A DNA stretch of 38,546 nt, taken from assembly GCA_027622905.1 (NCBI GenBank), contig JAQBVV010000016.1, positions 1-38,546 on the forward strand, in the 5' to 3' direction. The translations under genes were made by a program, and so were the position numbers. Below the pieces are notes generated by a model that did no database searches, was not told the DNA's origin, and worked only from the letters and a program-made list of their open reading frames with translations. The stretch is from Acidobacteriota bacterium (lineage in GTDB: Bacteria; Acidobacteriota; Vicinamibacteria; Vicinamibacterales; UBA2999). Below are positions 3,542 through 29,322 of the stretch, piece by piece. Positions within the stretch are counted from its first letter, which is position 1. Every line of letters starts with the position of its first letter.

Positions 3542-4438
3542 CTAGGAACGCGCCCGGTCCTGCAGGCCCATGTCATCCAGGACGCGATCGTTGTCGCGCC
3601 ATTCGGACTTCACTTTGACGTGCAGGTCCAGGTACACCCGGGTATTCAGGAACCGTTCGAGCTCGATTCGCGCCGCCGACCCGATCTGCTTGATCATGGC
3701 CCCGGCCTTGCCGATGACGATCGGCTTCTGTGAGCTCCGCTCCACGAGAATGGTGCAATAGACCGCGACGACCTTGTCGGAGTCGCCGTCGGCCACTCGA
3801 TCGACGACCACCGCGGTCGAGAACGGTAACTCGGCGTGCGTGAGGCGAAGCACCTGTTCCCGCACGATCTCGCTCACGAAGAACCGGTCCGGTTGATCGG
3901 TCACGTAGTCGGCCGGATAGAACGGGGCACCCTCAGGCAGATACTTGAGAAACAGCATCTCCAGCAGATCGACGTTCGTGCCATCGGCCGCTGAAATCGG
4001 CGCGATCTCGACAAACGGGTGCGCCTGCCTGTAGCGGTCCATGATCGGCAGCAGCCTGGCCTTCGCGATCAGATCCACCTTGTTCAGGGCCAGCATCACC
4101 GGGACCTTCACGCCTCTCAGCAGCCCGATCAGATGACGGTCACCCGGCCCCTCCTTCGCCGAGGCATCCACCACGAGCGTGAGCACATCGACGTCACGCA
4201 TCGCATCGAGCGCCACGTCAACCATGCGCACGTTCATGCGGTGCGTCGGCTTGTGTACTCCCGGCGTGTCGACGAAGACCACCTGCCCGTCGTCGTAGTG
4301 CTTGACGCCCACGATGCGGGTTCGCGTCGTCTGCGGCTTGTCGGACACGATGGCCAGCTTGTGGCCGACGATGCGATTCAGCAGCGTCGACTTGCCGGCG
4401 TTCGGGCGTCCGATGAACGAGACGAAGCCAGCCTTCAC
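3542..4438 (-). CDS. era: GTPase Era
   Basis: GRPNAGKSTLLN, DTPGVHKP, NKVD motifs and C-terminal KH domain (VIGKAGAMIKQIGSAARIELE). Confidence 0.96.
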   Translation of the reverse strand: MKAGFVSFIGRPNAGKSTLLNRIVGHKLAIVSDKPQTTRTRIVGVKHYDDGQVVFVDTPGVHKPTHRMNVRMVDVALDAMRDVDVLTLVVDASAKEGPGDRHLIGLLRGVKVPVMLALNKVDLIAKARLLPIMDRYRQAHPFVEIAPISAADGTNVDLLEMLFLKYLPEGAPFYPADYVTDQPDRFFVSEIVREQVLRLTHAELPFSTAVVVDRVADGDSDKVVAVYCTILVERSSQKPIVIGKAGAMIKQIGSAARIELERFLNTRVYLDLHVKVKSEWRDNDRVLDDMGLQDRARS

Positions 4439-4447
4439 GCGTCGCTG

Positions 4448-5686
4448 CTACTCCGGGGCCTCGACGGCACCGGCGCGCTGCACGCGCACTTTCGTGATCC
4501 GCCGACGCTCCACCTCGACGACCTCGACCGCGAGACCATCGACCTCGAACGTCTCACCGACGTACGGAATCCGACCAAGATGCGCTAGCAGATACCCGCC
4601 AACCGTCTCGAATCCCTCGCGCTCGATCCGCACGCCCAGACGGTCCTTGACTTCGTCAACAGCGACCTTGCCGTCGAACACGAACACCCCGTCCCCTTCG
4701 TCGGTGACGGTATCGCTTTCGACGTCGAACTCATCGCGAATCTCGCCGACGATTTCCTCCAGCAAGTCCTCCACCGTGATCAGGCCCGCCGTGCCGCCAT
4801 GCTCGTCAACGACGATCGCCGTCTGCGCCTGGCGGCGCTGCATCTCCTTGAGCAGTTCAGCACCCCGCTTGCTCTCGGGCACCATGTACGCCGACCGCAT
4901 CAGCGTGGTCAGCGGCGGCCTGGCATCCGGCGGCAGCGCGGCCAGATCCTTGACGAAGACAATGCCGACGATGTTGTCCAGGCTTCCCCTGTAGACGGGA
5001 ATCCGCGAGTACTGCTCCTCCCGGAACAACGTCCGCAGATCATCGATGGATGACTCGGCCCGGATCGCGACGATATCGGGACGCGGTGTCATGACCTCGC
5101 GCACCACGGTCTCGGTGAAATCAACGATCGACTGAAGCAGTTCGCGGCCCTCGGCTTCCGAGATCGTCCCCTCGGTGTCCTGCTCGTCAGGGAGGCTGGC
5201 TCCATTCGACGCCGGGCTTGCGTCACCGCCATGGCCCACCGCCTCACGATCGCCGCGCGCGCCCGACATCTCGCTGAGCAGGCGCGTCAGGGGACGCATG
5301 GCCCGCTCGAGAGGATGGAACACCACCAGGAGGAGGTCGAGGGCCTTCTCCGGACTGCGACGCGTCAGAAGCATCGGCAGCAGGTGCTCGCAGACCGTCA
5401 CGAATGCGATCAGCGACACGCAGAAGGTCGCCACGGCCAGCGCATCGTTCACCGTGCTGAGCCTGGCGATCAGCACGCCTGCCAGCACGGTACACAGCCC
5501 GATCAGGATCCGAACGGGTATGAAGAGCTGGAGCGGGTCGTCCAGGTACGGACCGAGCCGATCGTCGCGCCCTCCCCGTTCAGCCATCAGCCGCAGCGAC
5601 AAGCGCATCAACGCGCTGAACGCGGCCTGCACTGACCCGAGGAACACCGTCACGCAGGCGATGAGGAATAGGGAAAGTGGCGTCAC
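4448..5686 (-). CDS. Hemolysin/CorC family protein (CNNM, CBS pair and CorC_HlyC domains)
   Basis: TETVVREVMTPRPDIVAI..., IVVDEHGGTAGLITVEDLLEEIVGEIRDEFD; N-terminal membrane segments. Confidence 0.92.
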   Translation of the reverse strand: MTPLSLFLIACVTVFLGSVQAAFSALMRLSLRLMAERGGRDDRLGPYLDDPLQLFIPVRILIGLCTVLAGVLIARLSTVNDALAVATFCVSLIAFVTVCEHLLPMLLTRRSPEKALDLLLVVFHPLERAMRPLTRLLSEMSGARGDREAVGHGGDASPASNGASLPDEQDTEGTISEAEGRELLQSIVDFTETVVREVMTPRPDIVAIRAESSIDDLRTLFREEQYSRIPVYRGSLDNIVGIVFVKDLAALPPDARPPLTTLMRSAYMVPESKRGAELLKEMQRRQAQTAIVVDEHGGTAGLITVEDLLEEIVGEIRDEFDVESDTVTDEGDGVFVFDGKVAVDEVKDRLGVRIEREGFETVGGYLLAHLGRIPYVGETFEVDGLAVEVVEVERRRITKVRVQRAGAVEAPE

Positions 5687-25449: not shown

Positions 25450-25608
25450 TTACCTTCCGCCGATTGAGTCGTCCTGCAGAACGCGCTCGACGTCCTGTGC
25501 GCCGTGTAGCACGGCGACAACAGTAAGAGGCACGCTCGCGGGGTCGTAGACGATCAGGTACGAATAGACGGTCCAGAACTTGACTTGCCGCGCCGTAAGG
25601 TCTTCACT
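25450..25608 (-). pseudogene. C-terminal remnant of a RelE/ParE-type toxin; N-terminal half absent, joins repeat copy A
   Basis: Reverse frame SEDLTARQVKFWTVYSYLIVYDPASVPLTVVAVLHGAQDVERVLQDDSIGGR resembles ParE C-terminal half; the upstream coding side is repeat sequence. Confidence 0.65.
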
Positions 25609-25857
25609 GTCACGGCCACGGAAGCCGGCATCTCGACTCCGCCGTCCGCACGGCACGCCCACCCGGAGGCGCAGGACCTGGAATCCCTTTCGAATCGACA
25701 GCGCTCTGGCGACCGCGTCGGCTAGAGCGTTTTTCGATTCGGTGGAGACCGAAAAACGCGGGAAAGCGCTTTTCGAAAACGCCCGGCCCCCGCGAGAAGC
25801 CCTGGACCGAAACGAAAAGCGCTCGGGCTCCGCGAGACACCGGCTCCTGCGTCCGTG
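25609..25857 (+). repeat. Palindrome-ended dispersed repeat, copy A (145-bp core interrupted by a 100-bp TIR element)
   Basis: CACGGCCACGGAAGCCGGCATCTCG ... CGAGACACCGGCTCCTGCGTCCGTG, imperfect 25-nt terminal inverted repeat; shared with copies B, C, D. Confidence 0.85.
25725..25824 (+). mobile_element. 100-bp TIR (MITE-like) element inside copy A
   Basis: GAGCGTTTTTCGATTCGG...CCGAAACGAAAAGCGCTC; 96/100 identical by eye to 26,899-26,998; left flank TA. Confidence 0.75.
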
Positions 25858-26035: not shown

Positions 26036-26338
26036 GTGGGTAATAGCGAGCGCGTCACCGTCACGCTGTCCGGTGACCTCGTCGAGGGGATCGATCGGCT
26101 CGAGAGGAATCGCAGCCGCTTCATCGCCGAAGCTATCCAGCACGAGTTGGATCGGCGGCGTCGCGATGCCCTCCTCCAGTCGCTCAGTAGCCCACATCCG
26201 GAGACGACCGAACTCGCCGACATGGGCCTGGCCGACTGGACTTCCGACCTGCCCAACGATGAGGGGCTCGTCGATCCAAGAGGCGGAACCGCCGTTCGCT
26301 GGATTGAAGACCGCGGCTGGGTGAAAGAAACGGCGTGA
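26036..26338 (+). CDS. Ribbon-helix-helix (CopG/MazE-like) antitoxin
   Basis: ERVTVTLSGDLVEGIDRLERNRSRFIAEAIQHELDRRRRDAL is an RHH DNA-binding pattern; overlaps downstream toxin by GTGA. Confidence 0.85.
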   Translation: MGNSERVTVTLSGDLVEGIDRLERNRSRFIAEAIQHELDRRRRDALLQSLSSPHPETTELADMGLADWTSDLPNDEGLVDPRGGTAVRWIEDRGWVKETA

Positions 26339-26685
26339 AGTTCGAACGAGGCACCGTTGTTCTCGTTGAGCTTGATCCGACGGTTGGCCACGAGCAACGT
26401 GGTTCGCGCCCCTGCATCGCGGTCAGCGATCCGACCGTCAATGTAGATCAGCGCTTCCCCTTGATTGCAGTGGTGCCGGTCACCGGTACCGAAGGGGCGG
26501 GTGCTCTGTATCCCACGTTGTCCCCAGGAGTCAGTGGCCTCACGAAACAGTCGTGCGCTCTCGTGGACCATCTCCGGTCCATCGACAAGCGCCGCATCCG
26601 GCGGATCTTCGGCCAGGTGTCGCCGGGCGAGCTCGCGAGCATCGACCAGGGCCTCGCACTATTCCTGGGCCTCGGCGCCAGCTGA
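26335..26685 (+). CDS. PemK/MazF family toxin
   Basis: MKFERGTVVLVELDPTVGHEQRGSRPCIAVSDPTVN...RFPLIAVVPVTGTE...CALVDHLRSIDKRRIRRIFGQVS. Confidence 0.93.
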   Translation: MKFERGTVVLVELDPTVGHEQRGSRPCIAVSDPTVNVDQRFPLIAVVPVTGTEGAGALYPTLSPGVSGLTKQSCALVDHLRSIDKRRIRRIFGQVSPGELASIDQGLALFLGLGAS

Positions 26686-26898
26686 ATCGCCGTAGGGCTA
26701 CCAGACGGTCTTTCAACCATCGTGACCGCCGGTAGCTCCCAAGGAGGCCGCCGCGCACAACGAGTCGCGCAGAGGCCCAAGTCTCACGGCCACGGGAGCC
26801 GGCATCTCGACTCCGCCGTCCGCACGGCACGCCCACCCGGAGGCGCGAGGCCTGGCATCTCTTTCGAATCGACAGTGCTCTGGCGACCGCGTCGGCTA

Positions 26899-26998
26899 GA
26901 GCGTTTTTCGATTCGGTGGAGGCCGAAAAACGCGGGAAAGCGCTTTTCTAAAACGCCTGGCCCCTGCGAGAAGCCCTGGACCGAAACGAAAAGCGCTC
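26899..26998 (+). mobile_element. 100-bp TIR (MITE-like) element inside copy B, flanked on both sides by TA
   Basis: TA-GAGCGTTTTTCGATTCGG...CCGAAACGAAAAGCGCTC-TA; internal hairpin GCGTTTTTCG/CGAAAAACGC. Confidence 0.8.
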
Positions 26999-27000
26999 TA

Positions 27001-27129
27001 GGAGCCTGCGCGGCAGAACTGTTTCGGCCAGATTTTCGGGGTACCGCGACCCCTCTCTGGTGCCGATCGCGGCTCCTGGGGCAACGTCGCCAGCTGAAAA
27101 ATCGTGCCGTTTTCTGGCGCGCAGGCTCC
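27001..27129 (+). mobile_element. 129-bp TIR (MITE-like) element inside copy B, flanked on both sides by TA
   Basis: TA-GGAGCCTGCGCG...CGCGCAGGCTCC-TA, perfect 12-bp TIR (14 with TA) extending imperfectly; no such segment in copy A. Confidence 0.78.
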
Positions 27130-27176
27130 TAGCTCCGCGAGACACCAACTCCCGCGTCCGTGGTGGCCGCCTCGAG

Positions 27177-27301: not shown

Positions 27302-27526
27302 ATGGGAACCAAATCCGCAGTTGTCCACAGCGACCCGGAAATCATGGGCGGAACGCCCGTGTTTGTCGGAACGCGCGTGCCCTTTCAGACACTCCTTGAC
27401 TATCTCGAAGCGGGCGATCCCCTCTCAGAATTCCTCGAAGACTTTCCGACGGTAGGTCGGGAGCAAGCGGTGGCGGCTCTCGAAGAGGCCAAGGACGCCC
27501 TTCTTGCGCGTGCGCATTCTGCTTGA
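27302..27526 (+). CDS. DUF433 domain protein (putative antitoxin)
   Basis: VHSDPEIMGGTPVFVGTRVPFQTLLDYLEAGDPLSEFLEDFPTVGREQAVAALEEAKDALL. Confidence 0.9.
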   Translation: MGTKSAVVHSDPEIMGGTPVFVGTRVPFQTLLDYLEAGDPLSEFLEDFPTVGREQAVAALEEAKDALLARAHSA

Positions 27527-27830
27527 CGAGTGCCTGCCGAAACGCTTGAAAGGCGATTTGGTCGGGTACGACGCACGAACGGTGCCCGAAATGGGCTGGG
27601 CGAGCAAGCGGAATGGCGAGTTGCTCACCCTGGCAGAGACGCAATTCGATGTGTTTCTGACAGTCTATCGCAATCTCTCATTTCAACAGAATATTGGTCG
27701 GTTCAAGATCGCGGTCGTGGTCATAGTAGCCAAGAGTAACAAACGCACTGACCTGCAACCATTGATCAAAGACGTGTTGGCGGCTCTGCCCACAGCAATA
27801 CCCGGCCACGTCACGAAAGTGGGTGCCTAA
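27504..27830 (+). CDS. DUF5615 PIN-like protein (putative toxin partner of DUF433)
   Basis: MRVRILLDECLPKRLKGDLVGYDARTVPEMGWASKRNGELLTLAETQFDVFLTVYRNLSFQQNI. Confidence 0.9.
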   Translation: MRVRILLDECLPKRLKGDLVGYDARTVPEMGWASKRNGELLTLAETQFDVFLTVYRNLSFQQNIGRFKIAVVVIVAKSNKRTDLQPLIKDVLAALPTAIPGHVTKVGA

Positions 27831-27914: not shown

Positions 27915-27974
27915 CGTTCGTCCATCAGTTGAGACGAGTGTGGGGCTGAGGTTGGCGTCGAAGAGCAGCTTCAC
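27909..27974 (-). pseudogene. Truncated DUF5615 toxin (21 codons), ending inside the attC-like R' box
   Basis: Reverse frame VKLLFDANLSPTLVSTDGRTV*; GTGA overlap with the upstream DUF433 stop, N-terminus typical of DUF5615. Confidence 0.7.
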
Positions 27975-28192
27975 GCCACCGAACTTACGCGACGCTCACG
28001 CGCGGCGGCGAAGGCAAGGCTGGCGCGAATATCCTCGGTGGCCAGATCCGGGAAGTCGCTCAGCAACTGCGCTTCGGTCATGCCACCAGCGAGATACTCC
28101 AGCACGTCGTAGACGGTGATGCGCGTGCCCTTGATGCACGGCTTACCACTACGGACGCCGGGATTGACGATGATTCGTTGCTCCCACTCCAT
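27971..28192 (-). CDS. DUF433 domain protein (putative antitoxin, orphaned)
   Basis: MEWEQRIIVNPGVRSGKPCIKGTRITVYDVLEYLAGGMTEAQLLSDFPDLATEDIRASLAFAAARERRV. Confidence 0.92.
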   Translation of the reverse strand: MEWEQRIIVNPGVRSGKPCIKGTRITVYDVLEYLAGGMTEAQLLSDFPDLATEDIRASLAFAAARERRVSSVA

Positions 28193-28241
28193 GGAGCCGA
28201 TTCTACTCCCTTCTTCTCGAGGCGCCGTTCCAATGCCGTTT

Positions 28242-28289
28242 GGTGGAAAGACACGGTTCTTCGCGTCGCTCGGCTTCTCCCGCGAGTAC
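28242..28289 (+). pseudogene. 48-bp fragment of a DUF6883-type coding sequence fused to repeat copy C
   Basis: ggtggaaagacacggttcttcgcgtcgctcggcttctcccgcgagtac vs 28,577-28,624, 44/48 identical by eye. Confidence 0.7.
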
Positions 28290-28463
28290 TCCCACGGAGG
28301 CCGCCGCGCACGACGAGCCGCGTAGAGGTCCAGTAGAGGGCCAGGTGTCGCGGCCGCGGGAGCCGGCATCTCGACTCCGCCGTCCGCACGGCACGCCCAC
28401 CCGGAGGCGCGAGGACTGGCATCTCTTTCGAATCGACAGCACTCTGGCGACCGCGTCGGCCGG
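28290..28463 (+). repeat. Dispersed repeat, copy C (partial leader plus truncated core)
   Basis: GGAGGCCGCCGCGCACGACGAGCCGCGTAGAGGTCC...CGCGGCCGCGGGAGCCGGCATCTCGACTCCGCCGTCCGCACGGCACGCCCACCCGGAGGCGCGAGG...GACCGCGTCGGCCGG. Confidence 0.85.
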
Positions 28464-28492
28464 GTGATTCGACGTGGGACAATGCAGGCAAC

Positions 28493-28836
28493 GTGAAGCT
28501 CCGGAACGCTCAGCTTGCTGTCGTCGAACGTGGCAAGGTCCTCGACTATCTGCTGGATGAAGCCCACCCGGACAACGGTGGGAAGGCACGATTCTTCGCG
28601 TCGCTCGGCTTCTCCCGCGAGTATCCCGAGCGCCTGATGAGGGCCCTCCGGCAGGTCGCCGAACACGGCGAGGTCGCGAAAAGCGCGGCATCGGTGCATG
28701 GAGAGAATACGTTGTTGACGGCTGGTTGTCGGTGCACACTCAAGAGAGCCGGCAAAGGTCGGTCCGCACGGTTTGGATTATCGACCACGGCGGGGCGGCA
28801 CCGCGACTCGTGACCGCGTATCCTGGCAAGGAGTGA
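28493..28836 (+). pseudogene. DUF6883-like protein, frameshifted near 28,680
   Basis: VKLRNAQLAVVERGKVLDYLLDEAHPDNGGKARFFASLGFSREYPERLMRALRQVAEHGEVAK then, after a -1 shift, RGIGAWREYVVDGWLSVHTQESRQRSVRTVWIIDHGGAAPRLVTAYPGKE*. Confidence 0.75.
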
Positions 28837-28844
28837 CCATTCGA

Positions 28845-29078
28845 ATGATCAAGGAGCACGATCGAATCGTTCTGAACGAGCCCGTGCCCGGCGAAGGCCT
28901 CGAAGTTGGCGACGTCGGCACGGTGGTTCACGTTTACGCGGACGGGAAGGCGTTCGAGGTCGAGTTCACGACACTCGACGGTAAGACCGCCGCCGTCGCA
29001 ACCGTGGAAGCACTCGCGGTCCGGCCGGTCACCGGTCACGAGATCACGCACTCTCGCGAGCTGACGGACGCCAGATGA
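28845..29078 (+). CDS. DUF4926 domain protein
   Basis: MIKEHDRIVLNEPVPGEGLEVGDVGTVVHVYADGKAFEVEFTTLDGKTAAVATVEALAVRPV; start chosen inside the longer ORF 28773..29078. Confidence 0.85.
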   Translation: MIKEHDRIVLNEPVPGEGLEVGDVGTVVHVYADGKAFEVEFTTLDGKTAAVATVEALAVRPVTGHEITHSRELTDAR

Positions 29079-29322
29079 ATCGCCGTTGAACTGGGAGACG
29101 GTCTTTCAGCCATCATGACCGCCGGTCGCTCCCAAGGAGGCCGCCGCTCACAACGAGCCGCGTAGAGGTCCAAGTGTCACGGCCGCAGGAAGCCGGCATC
29201 TCGACTCCGCCAGCCGCACGGCACGCCCACCCGGAGGCGCGAGGCCTGGAACCGTTTTCGAATCGACATCTCCCTGGCGACCGCGTCGGCCGGCTACGCG
29301 AGACACCGGCTCCCGCGGCAGC
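29069..29322 (+). repeat. Dispersed repeat, copy D (leader plus uninterrupted core)
   Basis: CGCCAGATGAATCGCCGT...CACGGCCGCAGGAAGCCGGCATCTCG...GACCGCGTCGGCCGGCTACGCGAGACACCGGCTCCCGCG; lacks the TIR insertions seen in A and B. Confidence 0.87.

Follow-up and report, generated by a model that had tools for sequence, protein, structure and literature searches.

Within a 38,546-nucleotide contig of an Acidobacteriota bacterium (the window), one copy of a short repeat is split by two small inverted-repeat elements that stand side by side at TA dinucleotides, and this raises the question of what kind of element each is, which class of transposase would have moved it and why the two lie next to each other. 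The original prediction had treated them as a nested pair of non-autonomous elements of a single IS630/Tc1-mariner type. We consider it probable that the two, here called E1 and E2, are instead unrelated MITEs moved by two transposase classes that both favour the word CTAG. This reading draws on the observed repetition of the elements, their end sequences, their TA and CTAG flanks, two genes that are restored around E1, the identity of the terminal inverted repeat (TIR) of E2 with that of ISKpn6, and the adjacency of E2 to E1.

The interrupted outer repeat

Positions 26785-27162 span 378 bp, and subtraction of 102 and 131 bp leaves an outer repeat core of 145 bp (copy B), which confirms the coordinates predicted for a core split by TA, 100 bp, TA, 129 bp and TA. 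The interruption lies at a single CTAG, after GACCGCGTCGGC, in the order TA-E1-TA-E2-TA, and every TA in it belongs to a CTAG. The outer repeat has four copies in the genome, all of them inside the window, with copy A located at 25.6 kb. The features of the locus are as follows:

25725-25824, plus strand: E1 in outer repeat copy A, at the same site as in copy B, with GG for the right TA and without E2
26335-26685: PemK/MazF gene between outer repeats
26785-26896, plus strand: left segment of copy B of the outer repeat, which runs up to the insertion point with GACCGCGTCGGC; identity of 90-95% to copies A, C and D
26897-26898: left TA beside E1, inside the CTAG at 26896-26899
26899-26998, plus strand: E1, a 100-bp MITE with the TIR GAGCGyTTTTCGwTTCGGt; end-to-end hairpin, z -3.5
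26998-27001: CTAG formed by the last C of E1, the TA and E2; the putative target entered by E2, relatives of which are CTAG-bounded
26999-27000: TA between E1 and E2, common to both elements
27001-27129, plus strand: E2, 129 bp, a putative IS1182/ISKpn6-type MITE, every copy of which adjoins an E1; hairpin, z -6.0
27002-27128, plus strand: 127-bp unit of E2 between two CTAGs, a unit better written CTAG-127 bp-CTAG
27129-27132: right CTAG of E2
27130-27131: right TA of E2; the outer repeat core resumes at 27132
27132-27168, plus strand: right part of outer repeat copy B, starting GCTCCGCGAGACACC; family D5
27302-27830: DUF433 gene with a DUF5615-like gene, between outer repeats
27971-28699, minus strand: DUF433 gene between outer repeats
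28460-28463: CCGG at the matching site of uninterrupted copy C
28493-28813: DUF6883 gene between outer repeats
28845-29078: DUF4926 gene between outer repeats
29290-29293: CCGG at the matching site of uninterrupted copy D

E1 and E2 are thus neighbours that share a TA, neither lying inside the other, and the image of a Russian doll does not describe them. Copy A does hold the predicted 102-bp insert, the same E1 at the same place, but its right side reads GG instead of TA; copy D, proposed as an intact version of the site, is indeed uninterrupted but reads CCGG without a TA, as does copy C, and serves as an approximate empty site only. These departures from CTAG count against the reading of two MITEs at CTAG. 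The commonest readings at the internal CTAG site of E1 in the catalogued copies are CTGG in 17, CCAG in 17, CTAG in 11 and CCGG in 3 (main sequence context), and CTAG seems to decay by transitions. Given these variants, it is plausible, if not proven, that the CCGG of copies C and D is a decayed CTAG.

As E1 is common to copies A and B and E2 is present in B alone, we infer that E1 arrived earlier and E2 later. In copy B, E1 would first have entered the outer repeat, and E2 would subsequently have entered the CTAG at the right border of E1, a target made up of the last C of E1, the TA and a host G. Between positions 25600 and 29350 of the window, the four outer repeats are found in alternation with small genes of toxin-antitoxin type, as if the repeats, which are absent elsewhere in the genome, marked the borders of gene cassettes.

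E1 and its target site

BLAST returned 40 scored matches to E1 in the genome of the window, and an 18-mer pattern that covers both ends matched this genome 208 times, its backward control 0 times; a repetition of this order greatly exceeds chance. Correction of the 18-mer matches for the number per copy gives approximately 125-145 copies of E1 in the 3.4-Mb genome, although copy counts, like the CTAG counts below, are estimates in an assembly of 239 contigs that is broken inside repeats. A 12-mer was unsuited to a direct count as the interior of E1 also matches it. We catalogued 77 distinct near-full-length copies, with a mean of 4.8% off consensus, and truncated forms are also present in the genome. 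E1 has terminal inverted repeats, no coding capacity and many copies, as expected of a MITE, and its strand folds end to end into one hairpin. Four 37-bp forms, on contigs C5, C43, C111 and C133 (L067, L084, L136 and L140), consist of the left hairpin only and start at CTAG; they may have arisen by internal deletion from CGAAAAACGC to CGAAAAGCGC.

E1 is a lineage-specific MITE. BLAST found it in none of 58 relatives, its end pattern was practically absent (0 to 4 stray matches) from the 161 other genomes of the order, and the plasmid collection contained no E1. Its TIR patterns gave either no match or a chance match in a coding region among viral contigs, and Rfam returned one sub-threshold chance match only for the window between 25 and 30 kb. 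A single 20-mer match in a collection of genome contigs was dismissed as a chance occurrence inside hisB. Order-level matches to GAGCGGTTTTCGATTCGG (in G085 and others) were also set aside; they diverge past the first ~20 bp or are coding. In G085, a genome of the same order, a dispersed sequence (CTAG/GAGCGGTTTTCGATTCGGTrTAGCGGCGCTGAATCAACAC; L170, L172) shares ~20 bp of the E1 end and then differs, and may represent a cousin element.

A 105-bp repeat found in Bradyrhizobium and further alphaproteobacteria, bounded by CTAG (TAGAGCATTTTCG...CGAAAATGCTCTA), resembles E1 in its ends (TAGAGC-TTTTCG), in its size, in being flanked on each side by CTAG or TA and in having a CTAG inside, whereas its interior is no more similar to that of E1 than are shuffled sequences. 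Homology beyond the ends was accordingly rejected, as 121 of 500 shuffles with the ends held fixed scored as well. On Bradyrhizobium plasmids (L200, L201; 151-255) the 105-bp repeat is intergenic, has GAGCATTTTCG ends, lies between CTAGs and contains a further CTAG.

TA lies on both sides of E1 in 39 of 78 two-ended copies, the commonest flanking 4-mer being CTAG, and copies without TA flanks are not the rule. CTAG occupies both sides in 22 of the 78, and several IS1182/IS5-like and other elements of this genome use CTAG, both of which would suit a 4-bp CTAG duplication made by an IS1182- or IS5-type transposase, with CTAG-98 bp (AGCG...CGCT)-CTAG as the unit. The bases outside the TA (C and G) are, however, off the CTAG consensus in 35 of 167 cases versus 10 of 167 for the end bases of E1 (G and C), or ~3.5 times as often (Fisher p = 9e-5), and this greater variability speaks for duplication of 2 bp (TA) at NTAN sites, among which CTAG is strongly preferred. 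Copies flanked by CTAG/CTAA, GTAG/CTAG or TTAG/CTAG fit the same NTAN rule with TA duplicated, while a non-CTAG 4-mer common to both sides was found in two copies only (CTGG and CCAG), apparently products of decay. PF13340, which was taken as a marker of IS5/IS427-type transposases, is absent from the genome. We regard a 4-bp duplication by E1 as unlikely.

Two interrupted genes serve as independent empty sites for E1. On contig C129, a PHP-family phosphoesterase gene interrupted by E1 reads through in frame if a single TA is retained, and the alignment of its joined product with solved homologues extends over the junction. On C52, an IS630 and an E1 with a TA in common break a redoxin-like gene; retention of one TA restores the frame (RAQLGELQANYP), and the joined protein shows no alignment gap at the junction. 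The length of the spanning open reading frame alone did not separate one-TA joins from zero- or two-TA joins, as DNA of high GC content contains long open frames on whichever strand is read, and the evidence was confined to the two joins from which recognisable proteins result. The C52 redoxin gene (L036, ~630-840 and 2145-2453) has an in-frame TGA near the position of the peroxiredoxin catalytic Cys (MHT-TGA-PFRRAQLGELQ), a candidate selenocysteine codon.

The high copy number of E1, its hairpin shape and its 37-bp single-hairpin forms are reminiscent of REP/BIME-type palindromes, which would be spread by a RAYT (Y1 transposase) and leave no target duplication. Nevertheless, no Y1_Tnp gene (PF01797) is present in the genome, the interrupted genes are restored by a single TA, and E1 has long TIRs and a CTAG target, making this origin highly improbable.

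The best description of E1 is therefore an IS630-like MITE that targets TA and prefers CTAG. A duplicated TA and a preference for CTAG are shared with IS630, ISY100 (Tc1-mariner) and their MITEs: IS630 reportedly prefers the TA in CTAG (Tenzen and Ohtsubo 1991, cited in PMC2170065), and CTAG is the target of the IS630-family element ISPsy32 (PMC8027508). E1 would thus enter TA, preferably in CTAG, and duplicate the TA as IS630/Tc1-mariner transposases do, which points to an IS630-like class for its transposase. The target agrees with the family originally proposed for E1, but the corresponding transposon was not found. The one complete IS630 of the genome, on C52 with a frameshifted transposase, has the TIR AACAGrrTCGCG, which is unlike that of E1, and so it is not the partner of E1; an IS630 fragment on C177 is without a recognisable end. 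Searches of the genome, of the order and of the viral collection yielded no autonomous element with the TIR of E1, which weighs against the two-MITE reading.

The ISKpn6-type ends of E2

E2 is represented in the genome by five copies detected by BLAST and one further end. It begins with CTAGGAGCCTGCGCGGCAGAA, identical to the left end of ISKpn6, and with the CTAG included this identity extends over 21 bp (17-bp TIR plus CTAG); the ends of E2 are written as CTAG followed directly by GAGCCTGCGCGGCAGAA. The borders of ISKpn6 in a plasmid record are CTAG-GAGCCTGCGCGGCAGAAG and, with the other end read inwards, CTAG-GAGTCTGCGCGGCAGAGC, and the right end of ISKpn6 matches the variant of the E2-type end on C213. 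A pattern scan of viral contigs located the 20-bp end pattern of E2, with the same TIR, beside a transposase in an IMG/VR contig. This transposase is 79% identical to that of ISKpn6, and its best NCBIfam match is IS1182, below the full-length cut-off for a fragment cut by the contig end. All complete E2 borders in the assembly are CTAG, as are both sides of ISKpn6 and of four other IS1182 copies, and CTAG borders with GAG-type ends also mark more distant IS1182 relatives, some on phage contigs and others in genomes of this order.

Judged by this identity of TIR and CTAG, E2 is an ISKpn6-type IS1182 MITE and not an IS630 MITE, differing from ISKpn6 itself in being 127-129 bp long and without a transposase. 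ISKpn6 is known from blaKPC plasmids, and the ends it recognises are present, letter for letter, on a MITE of a distant bacterial genome. The strand of E2 also forms a hairpin. The plasmid collection, in which ISKpn6 is frequent, contained no match to the interior of E2, the whole element giving two weak partial matches (E 0.3).

The expectation that both elements are small, TIR-bounded, without coding room and mobile is borne out by the independent occurrence of each elsewhere in the genome, outside the outer repeat. Their assignment to one IS630/Tc1-mariner class by TA duplication survives in part, for E1, where the two restored genes and the flank statistics bear it out. A shared class for both is what the TA on all sides of E1 and E2 would suggest, together with the reported preference of IS630 for TA in CTAG (PMC2170065) and the use of the same kind of site by the frameshifted C52 IS630. 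The ISKpn6 (IS1182-family) ends already contradict it for E2, and the IS630 TIR of this genome is unrelated, leaving a common IS630 origin very unlikely.

A full ISKpn6-like transposase was not found in this assembly, which likewise counts against two MITEs of separate classes; relatives possess such transposases. At C213:1-64 (L161 / L049), an ISKpn6-like end, GAGTCTGCGCGGCAGAA, with an interior unlike that of E2, runs off the contig end beside a truncated E1, and may belong to an autonomous IS1182 copy, a helper of E2, in an assembly gap.

CTAG sites shared by several elements

Each of the genome's six E2-type ends or copies adjoins an E1, on either side and in both orientations. CTAG is rare, with 156 occurrences in 425 kb versus 325 expected from trinucleotides; of the CTAGs in 732 kb, 56 border an E1, 13 are internal to one and 201 have other locations, and by a scaled estimate E1-linked CTAGs make up ~14-28% of those in the genome. 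If E2 picked CTAGs at random, the probability that six of six ends would lie at E1 is ~1e-5 to 5e-4, where the CTAG sample is scaled up and the E2 copies are treated as independent.

Such constant adjacency, with three of the E2 ends in the order E1 right end to E2, might be taken to mean that the pair is one composite element moving as a unit. Yet E2 lies to the left of E1 on C210 and C213 and is inverted on C150, the E1 partners are 6-15% apart and no closer to one another than to other E1 copies, and E1 usually occurs without E2. Composite copies with identical partners and one common outer duplication were not found in the genome, and we give a composite hardly any credence.

Two elements mobilised in trans by two different transposase classes would account for the arrangement, E2, with its ISKpn6-type IS1182 ends, inserting at CTAG. 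As E1 starts with G and ends with C, its insertion at the TA of a CTAG leaves a CTAG at both borders and turns one target into two; that the G...C ends would rebuild the full word at either border follows directly from the sequence. The borders and the internal CTAG of E1 would then act genome-wide as landing sites for E2 and several insertion sequences. The C52 IS630 adjoins an E1 at its border with the TA in common, an IS1182/IS5-like insertion sequence lies inside the internal CTAG of E1 on C190 and again on C148, and IS1634 junctions lie in the internal CTAG on C142 and C82, perhaps representing one or two insertions.

We tentatively propose, as a possibility short of an even chance, that E1 is a target-multiplying landing pad, which raises the local supply of CTAG with each insertion and attracts CTAG users from several transposon families, diverting them from genes. 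Active attraction by E1 would go beyond the rebuilding of its borders. The IS1182-family element IS1272 aims at inverted repeats (PMC5678879), and such a preference might contribute to the pull of the palindromic E1, at or in which E2 and an IS1182-like insertion sequence are found. In contrast to the inverted-repeat-replacing transposition of IS1272 (PMC5678879), the target palindrome is not replaced here, E1 being retained with CTAG borders present.

In place of a single-family account, two transposase classes, one aiming at TA in CTAG and the other at CTAG, would converge on one rare word, with a high-copy MITE that regenerates CTAG as a favoured docking place for other elements. If this is true, one selfish element shapes the positions of other transposons, and the genome offers a natural test of whether target supply or chance governs transposon nesting in bacteria. 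A side-by-side CTAG arrangement was also observed outside this genome: on a phage contig (L178, ~4370-5240), an IS1182-family insertion sequence has a second element, with the ends GTGGTGTGGAC, precisely at its terminal CTAG.
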